From Marinomonas primoryensis (GTDB lineage Bacteria > Pseudomonadota > Gammaproteobacteria > Pseudomonadales > Marinomonadaceae): DNA of 64,000 bases. Below, piece by piece: positions 6,172-32,711 of the stretch. The notes under the pieces were generated by a model. The model was not told where the DNA came from. It saw nothing but the letters and a program-made list of their open reading frames with translations, and searched no databases. The position numbers and the translations under genes are program-made. The stretch lies in the NCBI RefSeq assembly GCF_013372285.1, contig NZ_CP054301.1, forward strand, positions 978,001 through 1,042,000. Direction: 5' to 3'. Within the stretch, counting starts at the first letter, position 1. Every line of letters starts with the position of its first letter.

Positions 6172-6936
6172 GTGGATATACTGCATAGTGTCATTTTGGG
6201 GTTGGTAGAGGGAGCAACAGAGTTTTTACCTATTTCTTCAACAGGTCATATGATTGTGGTCAGTCAATGGTTGGGAATGGAGCAAACAGAAGGTAACAAA
6301 GCGTTTGAGGTGATTATTCAATTGGCCGCTATCTTGGCGGTTGTCGCGAATTATAAAGAGCGTTTTACCTTTAAACATACTCGTCTTTGGTGTCAGGTGT
6401 TTGTTGCTTTTTTACCCGTTGCTGTTGTGGGTTTTTTACTGCGTCATCAAATTAAAGAATTGTTTTCTGTATCTGTAGTGGCAACCATGTTTATTGTGGG
6501 TGGGGTAATATTTTTGATTACTGAAAAAGTGATTAAGGGTAAAAAGGCCAGTGTCGAGCAGCTAGAAAATCTGAGCTTTAAGCAAGCGTTATGGATAGGA
6601 TTGGCTCAGGTATTTGCATTAATCCCTGGAACCAGTCGAGCGGGTTCAACGATTGTCGGCGCTTTGTTTGCTGGCTTAAGTCGTAAGGCTAGTGCAGAGT
6701 TTTCTTTCTTATTGGCGTTGCCCGTCATGATGGCCGCTTCTGGCTACGATTTACTATCAAATTATAAGGCGTTTTCTGGGGAGCAGTTATTGCCTTTGCT
6801 GGTCGGATTTGTCGTCGCATTCGTGAGTGCTTTTGTGGCAATGAAACTGTTTATGGCATTTTTGGACAAATTTACGTTTGTGGCTTTTGGTTGGTATCGC
6901 ATTGTGTTTGGTGGGCTTTTGCTGTTTCTTGCTTAG
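6172..6936 (+). CDS. uppP: Undecaprenyl-diphosphate phosphatase (BacA/UppP)
   Basis: 254 residues with about seven hydrophobic segments. This integral membrane enzyme dephosphorylates undecaprenyl pyrophosphate so that the carrier lipid can be reused for peptidoglycan and O-antigen synthesis; overexpression gives bacitracin resistance. Family motifs are complete: EGATEFLPISSTGHM (residues 13-27) and PGTSRAG (residues 152-158). GTG start at 6172 with GAAGG a few bases upstream. No obvious terminator follows; the next gene begins about 150 bases downstream on the same strand. Confidence 0.95.
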   Translation: MDILHSVILGLVEGATEFLPISSTGHMIVVSQWLGMEQTEGNKAFEVIIQLAAILAVVANYKERFTFKHTRLWCQVFVAFLPVAVVGFLLRHQIKELFSVSVVATMFIVGGVIFLITEKVIKGKKASVEQLENLSFKQALWIGLAQVFALIPGTSRAGSTIVGALFAGLSRKASAEFSFLLALPVMMAASGYDLLSNYKAFSGEQLLPLLVGFVVAFVSAFVAMKLFMAFLDKFTFVAFGWYRIVFGGLLLFLA

Positions 6937-20719: not shown

Positions 20720-21059
20720 TACGTCGTCCTCGATAGGTATGTTTATTTTTATAATATCTAAGGGAGGTTAAAAATTGTTACTCCTGTTTTAGTCACCATA
20801 CTTTATGAGTCGCTGCCAACATGCTGTTTGATGATTTTCCTTTCTTTAAATTGCGTTCATATGCGCCTGATTTTACGCATTTAATGCTCACCCTTTCAGC
20901 CATATAACCATAATGCTAAGCCTCTGTCATTTCTATGTAATCTTTTGCCTATAAATTGATGATTAACTTCCTTTTTGCAGGGGGAGGTCATTTTTGGTCA
21001 CCCGCATTATTGGACTAGTCGCCAATTGGGATAAATATATTTAATAGTAGGGCAATATT
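20720..21059. other. 340-base divergent control region of the chemoreceptor and phoX
   Basis: It contains the Pho box described separately. The first 110 bases upstream of the chemoreceptor are AT-rich without a convincing sigma-28 promoter. Confidence 0.5.
20924..20955 (+). promoter_or_regulatory. Pho box and -10 of phoX
   Basis: CTGTCAT (20924-20930), TTCT spacer and ATGTAAT (20935-20941) form two PhoB half-sites at 11-base spacing, the first a perfect match to the consensus. A TATAAA -10 (20950-20955) follows eight bases later and no -35 is evident, as in PhoB-activated promoters. The gene behind it is a phosphatase, which supports the reading. Confidence 0.75.
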
Positions 21060-22961
21060 ATGAAAATTGAACAAAAACACAATTTAAGTTTTGATGAATT
21101 AGATGAAATTGCGCGACCTGCGCCACGCGTCGTAGAGTTCGAAGAAGTGGCCAATAAAATGGTTTCTCGCCGTGGTTTTTTGGGCAGTGGTGTTGCTGTT
21201 GGTGCTGGTGCATTTGTAATGGGCTCCACTACGTTATCAGCAGGAAAAGCATTGGCGGCTGGTACAGACGAGTCCCGTCTTGCGTTTAAAATGGTCAAGG
21301 CAAATGGTCTTGATACTATAACGGTGCCTGAAGGCTATAAGTGGGAAGTGGTTGTTTCTTGGGGTGATCCATTGTTCAGTAATGCCCCAGCGTTAGATAC
21401 CACTACAGGTGGTACAGGCGCTTCTCAAGAGTTGGCTTTTGGTGATCATAACGATGGCATGGCTTTTTTCTCGAAAGATGGCAAGCAGATCATGGCCATT
21501 AACAACGAATACACCGATGGAAAAACGCTTCATGCGAATCGGGCTGATGGTATGCCTGAAACGGCAGACGATGTTCGTAAAAATAAAGCGGCGCATGGTG
21601 TCTCTATTGTGGAGGTGGCTCAACGTGGTGGTAACTGGGGGATTGTTCAAGACTCTGTATATAATCGCCGTATTACCGCTGATACAGAAATGGACATTAC
21701 CGGTCCAGCTCGAGGTCATAAATGGATGCAGACCTCAGAAGATCCTAAAGGCTTGGTTGCCAAAGGCACTTGGAATAACTGTGGTAACGGACAAACACCG
21801 TGGGGCACTTATCTTACTTGTGAAGAGAACTTCAACGGCTATTTTACTGCCAATGATAAAAACTACAAAATGCCTGAAGCGTTTAAACGTTACGGACTTA
21901 GCACAGAAGGGCGCTACAATTGGGCTATAGGTGATGCGCGCTTTGATTTAATCAAAGAGCCCAATGAGCCAAACCGTTTTGGTTATGTGGTTGAGATCGA
22001 TCCGTTAGATCCAACATCTCGTCCAAAAAAACGCACTGCGCTGGGTCGCTTTAAGCACGAAAATGCAGAATTGACCATCGCTTCAAATGGCCATGTTGTG
22101 GTCTATCTTGGCGATGACGAACGCGGCGAGTTTTTGTATCGTTTTGTGTCTAAGCATAAGTATTTAGCGGGTGGTCATAATCGTGACTTGCTGGAAGAAG
22201 GGACATTGTTTGTTGCCAAATTCCACGATAACAATCGTGGTGAATGGCTTGCTTTAACACCAAAAACAACAGGGATGACAGACGCCGAAATTTCGATTCA
22301 TACTCGTATGGCTGCCTCTAAAGTGGGAGCGACAACGATGGATCGCCCTGAATGGGTGGCAGCAAACCCAAATAAAGTGGAAGTCTTCTGTGCTTTGACG
22401 AACAATAAAAACCGTGGTGTAAAACCAAATGCGGGTGGTGATGCGACCCCCCCAAGTGGCCCTAACCCTCGAGTAGAAAATAATTTTGGTCAGATCGTTC
22501 GTTGGGTTCCTATGAACGAAGATCATACCAGTAGTGAGTTTAAGTGGAACTTGTTTGTACTGGCGGGCAATCCGGCGGTTTATGACGATGCTAATGCGGG
22601 CTCTCAAAACATCAACCAAGATAATATGTTTAACTCGCCAGATGGCCTGAAATTCGACTCTAAAGGGTTGTTGTGGATTCAAACAGACGGTAATTATTCA
22701 AATGCCAAAGGCTTCCAAGGTCAAGGTAATAATCAGATGTTGGTTGGAGACCCAGAAACCGGTGAAATTCGTCGTTTCTTAGTTGGGCCAAATGAGTGTG
22801 AAATTACAGGGTCTGCTTGGAACGCCGAACGAACCACTATGTTTATTAGTGTTCAACACCCTGGCGAGAAAGGAAATTCTCATTGGCCTGACGGCGGACA
22901 GTCTGTTCCTCGTTCTAGCGTCGTTGCGATTTCTCGTAAAGATGGCGCAGTAATAGGCTAA
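21060..22961 (+). CDS. phoX: PhoX-family alkaline phosphatase (Tat-exported)
   Basis: 633 residues. A twin-arginine signal (VSRRGFLGSGVAVGAGAF, about residues 36-53) precedes the PhoX (DUF839) beta-propeller. The conserved segment NNCGNGQTPWGTYLTCEEN (about 240-258) contains the cysteine and glutamate of the Fe/Ca cofactor site; GRFKHENAEL and the C-terminal QHPGEKGNS motif are also present. PhoX is a calcium- and iron-dependent phosphomonoesterase common in marine bacteria; folded export by Tat to the periplasm is expected. A Pho box lies 119-136 bases upstream, and a hairpin terminator follows, so it is a single-gene unit. Confidence 0.92.
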   Translation: MKIEQKHNLSFDELDEIARPAPRVVEFEEVANKMVSRRGFLGSGVAVGAGAFVMGSTTLSAGKALAAGTDESRLAFKMVKANGLDTITVPEGYKWEVVVSWGDPLFSNAPALDTTTGGTGASQELAFGDHNDGMAFFSKDGKQIMAINNEYTDGKTLHANRADGMPETADDVRKNKAAHGVSIVEVAQRGGNWGIVQDSVYNRRITADTEMDITGPARGHKWMQTSEDPKGLVAKGTWNNCGNGQTPWGTYLTCEENFNGYFTANDKNYKMPEAFKRYGLSTEGRYNWAIGDARFDLIKEPNEPNRFGYVVEIDPLDPTSRPKKRTALGRFKHENAELTIASNGHVVVYLGDDERGEFLYRFVSKHKYLAGGHNRDLLEEGTLFVAKFHDNNRGEWLALTPKTTGMTDAEISIHTRMAASKVGATTMDRPEWVAANPNKVEVFCALTNNKNRGVKPNAGGDATPPSGPNPRVENNFGQIVRWVPMNEDHTSSEFKWNLFVLAGNPAVYDDANAGSQNINQDNMFNSPDGLKFDSKGLLWIQTDGNYSNAKGFQGQGNNQMLVGDPETGEIRRFLVGPNECEITGSAWNAERTTMFISVQHPGEKGNSHWPDGGQSVPRSSVVAISRKDGAVIG

Positions 22962-29239: not shown

Positions 29240-29277
29240 TTATGGCAAATATTCTCGTCAAAAAAAGGTTTTACATA

Positions 29278-30267
29278 ATGAAAGCGACCATGTGCTCAAT
29301 GTTACTTCTTCCAAGTTTGCTTTGGGCTCAAGTTGAATCTTCTGAAGTAGACGATAGGTCAAAGGCGGAGACTGATAACGTGCTCGTTGCGGTGGAGGAA
29401 AAGGATGAACCTTACTCACCTGAAGAGCCAGAAGTACCAGAGTCGATTGCAAAACGTGCTAAAGAGGCCAATGGGTTATTTCAACAAAGGGAAGACAGAG
29501 AAACGGCTACGGTAAATAATCCGTTTGTTATGACACCTCATAAGCCGAATTATTTTTTACCGTTTGCTTATACCTCCAACCCAAATGATCGTGCTTTTTT
29601 AGGTGAAGATAGTGACTCGGAAAGTTTGCAAAGTGTTGAGTTTAAATTTCAGCTGAGTGTGAAGTTCCCCGTTGCTTATGACGTAGTTGGGCGAAATAGC
29701 AGTTTATGGTTTGCCTATACTCAGCAAGCCTATTGGCAGGCATATAACAGCAATATTTCTGCGCCTTTTCGTGATACCAATCATGAGCCTGAAGTCTTTA
29801 TCGTTACGAAGCCGAAGCATGGTTTTTTGGGCATTAAACCAGAATACGTTTCATATGGTTTTAATCACCAATCGAATGGCCAATCAGGGGATTTATCCCG
29901 CTCTTGGAATCGATTCTACGTAGACTTTTTGTTTGAGACCGGTGATACCGCGTTCTCTTTTAAGCCTTGGTATCGAATCTCTGAAAGTTCAAAAGTAGAT
30001 GACAATCCTAATATCGAAAAGTATTTCGGTTATGGGGAGTTGAATGTGATACACGTTATTGATGATTACAGCATTGACATCATGCTGCGAAATAACCTTA
30101 AGTCGTCGGATAATAGAGGCGCACTTCAAGTTGGTTTTAATTTTCCTCTATGGGGGAAAACACGGGGCTACATTCAATATTTTAATGGCTATGGTCAATC
30201 TCTATTGGACTATAACCATCAGACTCAATCCCTTGGTATTGGAATTATGCTGACCAACTGGCTGTAG
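29278..30267 (+). CDS. pldA: Outer-membrane phospholipase A1
   Basis: About 329 residues. Signal peptide MKATMCSMLLLPSLLWAQ, an acidic linker, then a 12-strand OMPLA barrel with aromatic-rich strands. The catalytic segment GFNHQSNGQSGDLSRSWNR holds the His-Ser-Asn triad. The C-terminus ends in SLGIGIMLTNWL, with hydrophobic residues as expected for BAM recognition. OMPLA hydrolyses phospholipids that have flipped to the outer leaflet. Start ATG 29278 (AAGG upstream) gives the compact signal peptide; ATG 29242 is less likely. It directly precedes a Pho-box unit. Confidence 0.9.
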   Translation: MKATMCSMLLLPSLLWAQVESSEVDDRSKAETDNVLVAVEEKDEPYSPEEPEVPESIAKRAKEANGLFQQREDRETATVNNPFVMTPHKPNYFLPFAYTSNPNDRAFLGEDSDSESLQSVEFKFQLSVKFPVAYDVVGRNSSLWFAYTQQAYWQAYNSNISAPFRDTNHEPEVFIVTKPKHGFLGIKPEYVSYGFNHQSNGQSGDLSRSWNRFYVDFLFETGDTAFSFKPWYRISESSKVDDNPNIEKYFGYGELNVIHVIDDYSIDIMLRNNLKSSDNRGALQVGFNFPLWGKTRGYIQYFNGYGQSLLDYNHQTQSLGIGIMLTNWL

Positions 30268-30300: not shown

Positions 30301-30354
30301 GTGTCATTAAATTGTCATGATTTCGTCATTTTTTGCTTTTAAGGTGGGTATCAA
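30301..30354 (+). promoter_or_regulatory. Tandem Pho box of the repeat lipoprotein gene
   Basis: GTGTCAT (30301), TTGTCAT (30312) and TCGTCAT (30323) recur at exactly 11-base intervals with A/T-rich spacers (TAAA, GATT), the PhoB-box architecture. A -10-like TATCAA lies at 30349-30354, 21 bases before the start codon. Confidence 0.78.
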
Positions 30355-30374
30355 TCTTACTTAGGAGCTACACC

Positions 30375-30947
30375 ATGAAATTGACGTTTTTACCTGTTGT
30401 AACAAGTTTAGTCGCACTTACATTACTAACCGCCTGTGGTGGTGAAATGGTTAAAAAAGATGAGGCAAAGCCGATGGCTGAAGCTGTGTCTTTGAATAAT
30501 GAAGACTTGTACGAGGTTCACCATGATGGCCGGATTTATATTTTTGATGATCGTGCTGTCTATGAAGAGTTTCTACAAGTTGGTGAAACTTCATATCGCA
30601 AAGTTCGTATTGGTGCAGGCCCAAAGGGTAAAACGATTGTATTTGGTTTAACTAATGCGGATAAAAAGAAAATGTCGGGCATAGCCTCAGTCGATATGTA
30701 CGATGGTGCATTGGACGCGGCGACACCTTTTTATGGTGAAATGCGAATAGACGGCCGAATTTATGTTTTTGGGTCCTTACAAGAAATGAATAGCGCGCGG
30801 ATTGTTGGTGAAGTGCCTCTGCGTTATACGGATATCGGATCTGGGCCAAAAGGCGAGACCGTTGTATATGCTTTGAACAGCAGCAATAAAAAAGTTAAGC
30901 CTGAAGCGATGATCGCGTTATTTCATAAAATGAATGATATGAAGTAA
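30375..30947 (+). CDS. Lipoprotein with two copies of an unnamed domain
   Basis: 190 residues. Lipobox LTAC (Cys21). Residues about 45-98 and 119-173 are internal repeats: both contain DGRIY(I/V)F, a middle V/I-G-E segment, and G-x-GPKG-(K/E)-T-(I/V)-V-(F/Y)-x-L-(T/N). I do not recognise the domain. AGGAG at 30363-30367 sets the start; the longer frame is excluded. Three PhoB-like half-sites lie upstream and a strong terminator follows, so it is a monocistronic, probably phosphate-starvation-induced periplasmic protein. A role in binding a phosphorus compound or remodelling the envelope is speculation. Confidence 0.8.
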   Translation: MKLTFLPVVTSLVALTLLTACGGEMVKKDEAKPMAEAVSLNNEDLYEVHHDGRIYIFDDRAVYEEFLQVGETSYRKVRIGAGPKGKTIVFGLTNADKKKMSGIASVDMYDGALDAATPFYGEMRIDGRIYVFGSLQEMNSARIVGEVPLRYTDIGSGPKGETVVYALNSSNKKVKPEAMIALFHKMNDMK

Positions 30948-30966
30948 TTAATCCGCTTAATATTTT

Positions 30967-30997
30967 AAAAATGCCTCGTCATTACGAGGCATTTTTT
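30967..30997 (+). terminator. Terminator of the repeat lipoprotein gene
   Basis: AAAAATGCCTCGT / ACGAGGCATTTTT, a 13-base perfect stem with a CATT loop and trailing T-run. Confidence 0.93.
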
Positions 30998-31020
30998 TGT
31001 CTGCGTTTTACTGTGTAAGG

Positions 31021-31076
31021 GTGTCATTAAGTTGTCATCTAAGTGCCACGGAACTGACATTTTACTGGTCTATGTT
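31021..31076 (+). promoter_or_regulatory. Four-half-site Pho box of the PAP2-glycosyltransferase operon
   Basis: GTGTCAT (31021), TTGTCAT (31032), GTGCCAC (31043) and CTGACAT (31054) fall at exact 11-base intervals. A -10 TATGTT starts at 31071, ten bases after the last half-site, which is the classical PhoB-promoter distance. The first 10 bases are identical to those of the Pho box at 30301. Confidence 0.83.
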
Positions 31077-31107
31077 GAAAGTAAGAAAAAATCAGTGAGG
31101 TGATAAA

Positions 31108-31623
31108 ATGAATATACTCCAAAACATTCATGCATTTGATGTACAGACTTTTTATTGGTGTATGGCACGCAAACATAGAGCTAAGTTAACCCAAATAGGG
31201 CGCGCTATATCGTTTTCAGCGGATGGCCCTATGTATGCTTTGGTTGCCGCACTAGTTTGGCTGGCAGGATTTGAGACATTGGTTTGTGTGCTAGCCTTTG
31301 GTTTTTTGATTGAACGCGCCGTATATTTTGTTTTAAAGCGAGGTTTTAAGCGTCATCGTCCTGCCGATGCGTTAGATGACTTCAGTAGTTTTATTATTCC
31401 ATCTGATCAATTCTCTTTTCCTTCAGGCCATACATCAGGCGCATTTTTTATTGCTTTCTGTTTGAGTGAGTGGTTTCCAAGCTTGAATATGATGTTGTAT
31501 TTCTGGGCCGCTAATGTCGGTTTATCACGCATCTTTCTAGGTGTGCATTTTCCTACGGATACGGTGATTGGTGCTTTATTAGGCAGCACTTGTGCTGCAG
31601 TGGCAATAGGCGTTTTAGTATGA
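31108..31623 (+). CDS. PAP2-family membrane phosphatase
   Basis: 171 residues with about five membrane segments. All three PAP2 motifs are present: KRGFKRHRP (KxxxxxxRP form), FPSGHTSGAF, and SRIFLGVHFPTD (SRxxxxxHxxxD). Such enzymes dephosphorylate phosphatidate, phosphatidylglycerophosphate or undecaprenyl diphosphate. Its stop overlaps the ATG of the glycosyltransferase gene by 4 bases. With four PhoB half-sites upstream it is probably phosphate-starvation induced; in that setting conversion of phosphatidate to diacylglycerol is the attractive role, but the substrate is not shown by sequence. Confidence 0.87.
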   Translation: MNILQNIHAFDVQTFYWCMARKHRAKLTQIGRAISFSADGPMYALVAALVWLAGFETLVCVLAFGFLIERAVYFVLKRGFKRHRPADALDDFSSFIIPSDQFSFPSGHTSGAFFIAFCLSEWFPSLNMMLYFWAANVGLSRIFLGVHFPTDTVIGALLGSTCAAVAIGVLV

Positions 31624-32711
31624 AAATCCTTTATGGTGTGCAAGGTACCGGTAATGGTCATATTACCCGAGCAAGAGCCATGGCGGCAGAAATGCATGCA
31701 GCAGGCTTTAAGGTGGACTTTGTGTTCTCCGGTCGTCCACCGGAAGACTATTTTGATATGGCGGTATTTGGTGCCTATCGAACGTTTCAAGGCTTAAGTT
31801 TTGTGGCCCGAAATGGACAGTTAGATTTGTATGCAACCTGCAAGAATGCGAACTTTTTTATGCTGTATCGAGACATTCGTGCACTGGATACGAGAGGTTA
31901 TGATTTAGTCATCACTGATTTTGAGCCTATCGTTGCATGGGCTGCTAAACGTCAGGGTGTGCCTTGTATTGGTTTTGGTCATCAATATGCGTTTAAATAT
32001 GATATTCCGCGTTATAAAAAGAATGTTGTTGCACAATGGATTATGTCAAATTTTGCACCCGCGGATACGCAATTAGGCGCTCACTGGCATCACTTTGGTT
32101 ATCCTATTCTACCTCCTCTTATTCATGCTCAAGAAATGAAGAATATCACTGATCCTGATCAAGTATTGGTGTATCTACCTTTTGAGAACAGTGAGGCGGT
32201 ACTGGATTGGCTTGATGGCGTTCCTAACTATCATTTTCGCTTTCACTGTAAAGACATTGAACCCGGTATTTATGGCAATGTTGAAATATTTCCATTTGGT
32301 CGTGAGTTGTTTCAAAAAAATTTAAGCGAATGCGAATCTGTATTGTGTAATGCCGGATTTGAGTTGAATTCAGAGGCTTTGCAACTGGGTCGACGCATTT
32401 TAGCGAAGCCGTTAAAAGGGCAAATAGAGCAGCATTCCAATGCCATTGCGTTGGATTTTTTGGGCATTGCCAAAACGAGTGACGTTTTGAATTCGGAGAT
32501 TATTCAAGATTGGTTGGAAACGAGCCGTGTGGTTCAAATCTCTTATCCAAATGTTGCTCGCGCTGTGGTGGCTTGGCTGCAATCGAATAACGATACGAGT
32601 GTGGCGGATTTGTGTGAGTCGTTGTGGCAGCAAACTCCGAATGTGCGCGGAATCGATTTTAAATACAATAAAGACACTTCTGAGAACAACGAAAAAAGCG
32701 TTACGGCCTAA
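31620..32711 (+). CDS. GT28-like glycosyltransferase (MJ1255/VC2487 family)
   Basis: 363 residues. The N-terminal loop GVQGTGNGHITRARAMA has the glycine-rich G-x-G-x-GH motif of GT-B enzymes such as MurG and diacylglycerol glycosyltransferases. Middle landmarks are VITDFEPIVAWAAKRQG and CIGFGHQYAF; the nucleotide-sugar half has ESVLCNAGFELNSEALQLGR and PLKGQIEQHSNA. No membrane helix; probably peripheral. Co-translated with the PAP2 gene under a Pho box. Glycosylation of the diacylglycerol freed by PAP2, giving a phosphorus-free membrane lipid, is my inference. The stop codon lies in the loop of a downstream hairpin. Confidence 0.82.
   Translation: MKILYGVQGTGNGHITRARAMAAEMHAAGFKVDFVFSGRPPEDYFDMAVFGAYRTFQGLSFVARNGQLDLYATCKNANFFMLYRDIRALDTRGYDLVITDFEPIVAWAAKRQGVPCIGFGHQYAFKYDIPRYKKNVVAQWIMSNFAPADTQLGAHWHHFGYPILPPLIHAQEMKNITDPDQVLVYLPFENSEAVLDWLDGVPNYHFRFHCKDIEPGIYGNVEIFPFGRELFQKNLSECESVLCNAGFELNSEALQLGRRILAKPLKGQIEQHSNAIALDFLGIAKTSDVLNSEIIQDWLETSRVVQISYPNVARAVVAWLQSNNDTSVADLCESLWQQTPNVRGIDFKYNKDTSENNEKSVTA

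Follow-up and report, generated by a model that had tools for sequence, protein, structure and literature searches.

The DNA considered here is a window of 64,000 nucleotides from the single-contig, 4.07-Mb genome of Marinomonas primoryensis (G000:C1:978001-1042000), and all of its features named below lie on the plus strand. It harbours a compact operon, a candidate lipid-remodelling module, that encodes a PAP2 lipid phosphatase of 171 amino acids (aa; 31108..31623) followed by a 363-aa glycosyltransferase (GT; 31620..32711) of the MJ1255/VC2487 family, which is proposed to act on diacylglycerol (DAG). The two reading frames share 4 bp (31620-31623). Upstream lies a Pho box composed of four PhoB half-sites (31022..31060), and 10 bp past the last of these stands TATGTT (31071..31076), a hexamer that is -10-like by resemblance to the consensus only. 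An earlier reading of the sequence (the original prediction) had described these features as parts of a phosphate-controlled route from phospholipid to glycolipid, and each of them is present as described. The closest named relatives of the GT belong to Marinomonas, and its tree places it within that genus.

The half-sites (TGTCAT at 31022 and 31033, TGCCAC at 31044 and TGACAT at 31055) follow one another in steps of exactly 11 bp. Together they score 21 of 24 matches, and no chain of 18 or more occurred in 1.28 Mb of first-order Markov random sequence. In pattern searches of the whole genome, the exact arrangement TGTCATN5TGTCAT is found three times, twice within this window, and with at most one mismatch there are 37 occurrences against 11 for a reversed control pattern. 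Other matches to the Pho pattern are often intragenic and were not counted as promoters; one further site lies in front of what looks like a gene for a PhnC-type ATP-binding cassette transporter ATPase, a name assigned by eye. All 30 congeneric loci examined retain both the overlap of the PAP2 and GT genes (4 bp in length, except for two loci with 1 bp) and a chain scoring 17-21/24. A wider sample comprised the best 80 of 593 GT relatives found in GTDB genomes, referred to below as the named loci. Upstream of the operon, the highest-scoring pair of half-sites reached p<=0.05 against random segments from the same locus in 39 of 72 named loci, where 3.6 would be expected; some 30 of these 39 are outside Marinomonas, related loci not being independent of one another. 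PhoB itself is encoded in the genome, above its family cutoff. The conserved box, together with the presence of this regulator, supports the predicted control of the operon by PhoB.

The first gene product belongs to the PAP2 family both by its match to PF01569 (2.1e-22) and by a complete tripartite active site, consisting of Kx6RP, PSGH and SRx5HxxxD motifs. Residues K77, R84-P85, S106-G107-H108, R141, H147 and D151 are invariant in the alignment. The AF2 model (pLDDT 90) has LpxE (6ebu, TM-score 0.82) and Bacillus subtilis YodM (5jki, TM-score 0.77) as its nearest solved folds. Aquifex LpxE (6ebu) is also the best sequence match in the PDB, at 8e-16, and the fold is common to YodM and PgpB too. 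Scores fall under the NCBIfam cutoffs for PgpB and the undecaprenyl-diphosphatases, the sub-cutoff matches being mostly to the latter.

The second gene product exceeds the curated cutoff of TIGR00661, the MJ1255/VC2487 family, with 224.6 against 195.9 bits, and matches PF13528 at 1.4e-29; relatives at loci L102, L109, L166 and L167 likewise exceed the TIGR00661 cutoff. The AF2 model (pLDDT 92) adopts a GT-B fold whose nearest neighbours are GT1 transferases such as CalG3, YojK and YjiC, and the 50 best fold matches do not include monogalactosyldiacylglycerol (MGDG) synthase. The protein has no GT28 match in Pfam or NCBIfam. A single-sequence search found no solved relative, and a profile search reached only E ~0.2, to MurG and another glycosyltransferase. 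Alignment-invariant residues comprise T10-G-N-G-H14 and a C-terminal GFELxSE...QxEQxxN stretch, motifs that we take to be reminiscent of inverting GT1/GT28 enzymes. Because of these motifs and the GT1/GT28-like fold, the GT is predicted to be an inverting enzyme, which would yield a beta-glycosyl-DAG. The literature searched held no paper pairing MJ1255 with a glycosyltransferase, a single passing mention of VC2487 and none assigning the family a substrate, which appears never to have been determined.

Elsewhere in the genome, eight metallophosphoesterases are encoded, one of which (269 aa; G000:C1:3543767-3544576, L069 8768-9577) is taken as PlcP. It scores far under the LpxH cutoff, the true LpxH being a second gene. 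Its homologues are annotated as 'UDP-2,3-diacylglucosamine diphosphatase', for example on plasmids of Roseomonas, Sphingomonas and Pseudomonas aeruginosa; they adjoin a GT4 enzyme in G193 (L177), and adjoin or overlap OlsF in G037 and G404. The plcP gene has its own Pho chain of 18/24, and chains of at least 17/24 precede it in 22 of 30 congeners compared with 0.9% of random window segments. A PlcP-like protein is encoded by nearly all other GT-bearing congeners, the exceptions being G023, G025 and G036. OlsF is also present (NF052615, 872 bits against a cutoff of 620) behind a Pho chain of 19/24, so that the PlcP-like gene, OlsF and the PAP2-GT operon all carry chains of 18-21/24. A plcP-linked GT4 query, used as a probe for Agt, found no full-length relative in the genome, the best match being E 2.7e-7 over 96 residues. 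Two side observations concern these genes. A second OlsF-like protein (L263:988-2805) scores 411.8 bits, below the cutoff of 620. The plcP gene sits behind an EAL-CBS-GGDEF (cyclic di-GMP) gene with its own Pho chain of 19/24 (L069:6917-9577, equivalent to G000:C1:3541916-3544576); the same arrangement is seen again in G010, G018 and G020 and suggests a link between phosphate starvation, cyclic di-GMP and lipid remodelling.

The surroundings of the GT in other lineages support the lipid-remodelling reading. PAP2 is immediately upstream in 64 of the 80 named loci, often overlapping or a few bases apart. PlcP lies within 8 kb in 15 of the 80, where chance would give ~0.3 even within 17 kb, OlsF is near in four, and a DAG kinase of either type adjoins the GT in about 14. 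These genes are combined in many ways: plcP-PAP2-GT in G305 (L166), L206 and L226; plcP-patatin-PAP2-GT-DAG kinase in G379 (L167) and L228; plcP-GT lacking PAP2 in G413 (L168) and in Methylobacter, where the GT directly follows plcP (L211); OlsF, PAP2-GT and PlcP within a single cluster in G053 (L102); plcP-agt, PAP2-GT and dgkA at one locus in Methyloversatilis (L251); and olsB-olsA-agt-GT-dgkA in Methylococcus (L246). PlcP, OlsF, Agt, patatin phospholipase and DAG kinase thus recur as partners across divergent Gamma- and Betaproteobacteria. Linkage to PlcP requires ~12 changes on the tree and is therefore not one inherited accident. Almost all of the recurrent partners either produce or consume DAG or phosphatidate, or synthesise a phosphorus-free lipid.

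Several loci deserve separate mention. A Nitrosomonas-type operon, plcP-patatin-(PAP2)-GT-DAG kinase, recurs at L167, L228, L220, L224, L227, L236 and L252; its patatin resembles phospholipases of the cyclic-oligonucleotide-based antiphage signalling system (CBASS) type (NF041079, below cutoff) and in this case apparently belongs to a lipid operon. In Alishewanella and Rheinheimera (L193, L225) the GT stands directly behind a thymidine-kinase-like gene and not PAP2, a homologue of which lies elsewhere in both genomes. At L174 (G169), plcP adjoins a divergent PF13528 glycosyltransferase, below the TIGR00661 cutoff, and olsB- and olsA-like genes, which makes it a second and more distant type of glycosyltransferase at plcP. 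A GT relative in a Desulfobacula metagenome-assembled genome (MAG; L247) directly follows an 818-aa frame with a PHP-type phosphoesterase-like start and an Agt-like GT4 stretch. An apparent PAP2-GT fusion in G193 (L171, a 540-aa frame) was rejected: PAP2 occupies 6326-6847 and the GT begins at 6850 in a different frame, the extra N-terminus being an out-of-frame extension.

Co-occurrence of the genes was followed in the named set and in a second sample of 369 class-level genomes. In the latter, PlcP (E<1e-50) is found in seven of eight GT genomes and in 94 of 360 others (101/368 in total; Fisher p=6e-4). Amongst 50 named GT-bearing genomes, 41 have PlcP and seven have Agt. PAP2-GT occurs without PlcP in Marinobacterium (L232, L254), L209, L245, L261 and others; seven of the nine PlcP-lacking GT genomes keep the pair, the two exceptions (L246, L247) being MAGs. 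Conversely, PAP2 could not be detected at any position in 11 GT genomes, and ten of these have PlcP. Since at least one of the two potential DAG suppliers is present in 48 of the 50 genomes, the pattern fits an interchangeable supply of DAG by PlcP and PAP2, with the caveat that several of the genomes are draft MAGs. An association between loss of PAP2 and entry of plcP into the operon gave a raw Fisher p=0.001; independent pairs on the tree gave a median p of 0.5, and the association is therefore a trend only. That the GT is linked to PlcP, OlsF, Agt and DAG kinases and co-occurs with them supports the lipid-remodelling role that the original prediction had assigned to the operon, and the GT seems to replace Agt in many bacteria.

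Taken together, these observations make it reasonably probable that the operon is a PhoB-activated module producing a phosphorus-free glycolipid from DAG when phosphate is short, with PlcP and PAP2 both feeding DAG and the GT in the place of Agt. PhoB would bind the four half-sites and activate PAP2-GT along with the plcP and olsF genes located elsewhere in the genome, a response read from the promoter sites. PlcP would cut the head groups from existing phospholipids to release DAG, whilst PAP2 would generate it by dephosphorylating phosphatidate or a similar lipid phosphomonoester; the joint use of both in this organism is something we infer. The soluble-type GT-B enzyme would then use a nucleotide-sugar to glycosylate DAG, occupying the position held by the GT4 enzyme Agt, with acceptor, sugar and anomer all being predictions, and OlsF would produce ornithine lipid in parallel. 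The active site of bacterial PAP2 enzymes usually faces the periplasm. The GT is expected at the cytosolic face, so that flipping of DAG, thought to be fast enough to link the two membrane faces, would bridge the two sites. A broader proposal, which is tentative and which we regard as rather doubtful, is that the MJ1255/VC2487 family consists of widespread, probably beta-forming, DAG glycosyltransferases serving PlcP bacteria that lack Agt, and that in lineages without PlcP the PAP2-GT pair alone constitutes a full route from phosphatidate to glycolipid; such a PlcP-free route may operate in Marinobacterium and similar genomes.

Several points weigh against the proposed module. PlcP and Agt were assigned through synteny and similarity among the analysed sequences, without alignment to a characterised enzyme. 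The 11 GT genomes lacking PAP2 imply that this phosphatase is not indispensable. Upstream of VC2487 in Vibrio cholerae there is a peak for ChiS, a regulator of chitin utilisation (PMC11856585); Pho control is thus not universal in the family, whose regulation may differ in that species. Finally, Aquifex LpxE, which removes the 1-phosphate of lipid A, accepts undecaprenyl diphosphate (C55-PP) and phosphatidylglycerol phosphate (PGP) as well (PMC6581854), so that phosphatidate is not the sole candidate and kinship leaves the substrate of PAP2 unsettled. This breadth of LpxE-like enzymes favours a reading in which PlcP makes the DAG that the GT glycosylates, and PAP2 has some other role in starvation, such as the recycling of PGP, of phosphatidate in connection with DAG kinases, or of C55-PP. 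Pairing of the GT with PlcP in the absence of PAP2, in Methylobacter, G413 and most Nitrosomonas loci, and the DAG kinases beside the GT are in keeping with it. Such a separation of roles nevertheless seems unlikely, given how regularly PAP2 directly precedes the GT and given its retention in most PlcP-lacking GT genomes, which is what would be expected of a DAG supplier.

A different use of the same kinship would make the pair an envelope-glycan system, in which an LpxE-like phosphatase dephosphorylates lipid A (or C55-PP), with the GT modifying lipopolysaccharide (LPS) or an undecaprenyl-linked sugar, so as to spare outer-membrane phosphorus. The closeness of PAP2 to LpxE, its sub-cutoff undecaprenyl-diphosphatase matches and the likeness of the GT fold to GT1/GT28, the latter grouping including MurG, all speak for it. 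However, what recurs beside the GT from lineage to lineage is PlcP, OlsF, OlsB/OlsA, Agt, patatin or a DAG kinase, LPS genes not being the rule, and LpxE acts at the periplasmic face whereas a soluble-type GT would be expected to draw on cytoplasmic nucleotide sugars; this explanation is distinctly improbable. The original prediction went further than the proposed module in one respect, holding that PAP2 provides DAG from phosphatidate instead of PlcP in this organism, by a route separate from PlcP. PAP2-GT genomes lacking PlcP do exist, as in Marinobacterium, and PlcP is therefore not always needed. But a PlcP-like protein is encoded here and in nearly all other congeners that carry the GT, and plcP has a conserved Pho box of its own, which contradicts the replacement of PlcP here and renders that stricter version very improbable. 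Its contention that the route is unlike PlcP-Agt survives in part: no Agt was found and an MJ1255/VC2487 enzyme stands instead, but PlcP is present.

The operon belongs to a small Pho island within the window, in which Pho boxes precede phoX, a lipoprotein gene and PAP2. PhoX alkaline phosphatase (21060..22961; PF05787 2.2e-168), with a box at 20925..20941 (TGTCATTTCTATGTAAT), is a further Pho member that was absent from the original prediction. The two genes placed by that prediction just upstream of PAP2 are indeed there. The lipoprotein gene (30375..30947), whose product has no Pfam or NCBIfam match and comprises two similar halves with DGRIY...GPKG motifs, follows a box of three half-sites (30302..30329; chain 19/24, with the exact pattern at 30302 and a single mismatch at 30313). 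It is missing from L184, L190 and L191 and present in part of the genus only, and is therefore not core to the module. The pldA gene, encoding outer-membrane phospholipase A (29242..30267; PF02253 8.8e-102), has no Pho box of its own, the best upstream chain being 12/24, and in some congeners (L113-L115) it lies immediately upstream of PAP2.

Replacement of phospholipids by glycolipids is one of the main bacterial ways of living with little phosphate. If the proposed module is correct, it would name the missing enzyme family for many plcP genomes in which agt does not adjoin plcP (Marinomonas, Alteromonas, Shewanella, methanotrophs and Nitrosomonas), assign a role to a family that so far takes its name from a pair of locus tags, and add a source of DAG independent of PlcP. 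What is new appears to be the glycosyltransferase, in Agt's place, and not a replacement of PlcP.

Compared with LpxE, YodM and PgpB, the phosphatase has the same fold and complete active-site motif, but its gene context is that of glycerolipid remodelling and not of lipid A or PGP. With the GT28 DAG glycosyltransferases (YpfP/UgtP and MGDG synthase), the GT would share the proposed reaction, the GT-B fold and, presumably, a G-x-G-H loop near the N-terminus common to YpfP and MGD1; it differs in lacking a GT28 family match and in the absence of MGDG synthase from its best folds. Remodelling by PlcP and Agt has been described in Phaeobacter, Pelagibacter, P. aeruginosa and Methylosinus (PMC4796936, PMC8528852, PMC9239053). 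The present system resembles it in its Pho boxes, in a genome-encoded PlcP, in a glycosyltransferase that is often beside plcP and in the inclusion of OlsF or OlsBA in the same programme. It is distinguished by the added PAP2 gene and by an MJ1255/VC2487-family GT, GT1/GT28-like in fold, in place of Agt, which, like GTcp, is a GT4 enzyme described as retaining (PMC8231724). Published surveys record many genomes in which plcP has no adjoining agt; these include type Ia methanotrophs (PMC9239053) and the contexts designated types 4 and 6 (PMC4796936). In the type Ia methanotrophs another putative DAG glycosyltransferase takes that position, which was compared with B. subtilis YpfP, PAP2 being unmentioned (PMC9239053). 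In Methylobacter that enzyme, which is not Agt, is encoded beside plcP, and L211 has plcP followed directly by an MJ1255-family GT; the methanotroph enzyme may belong to the MJ1255/VC2487 family.

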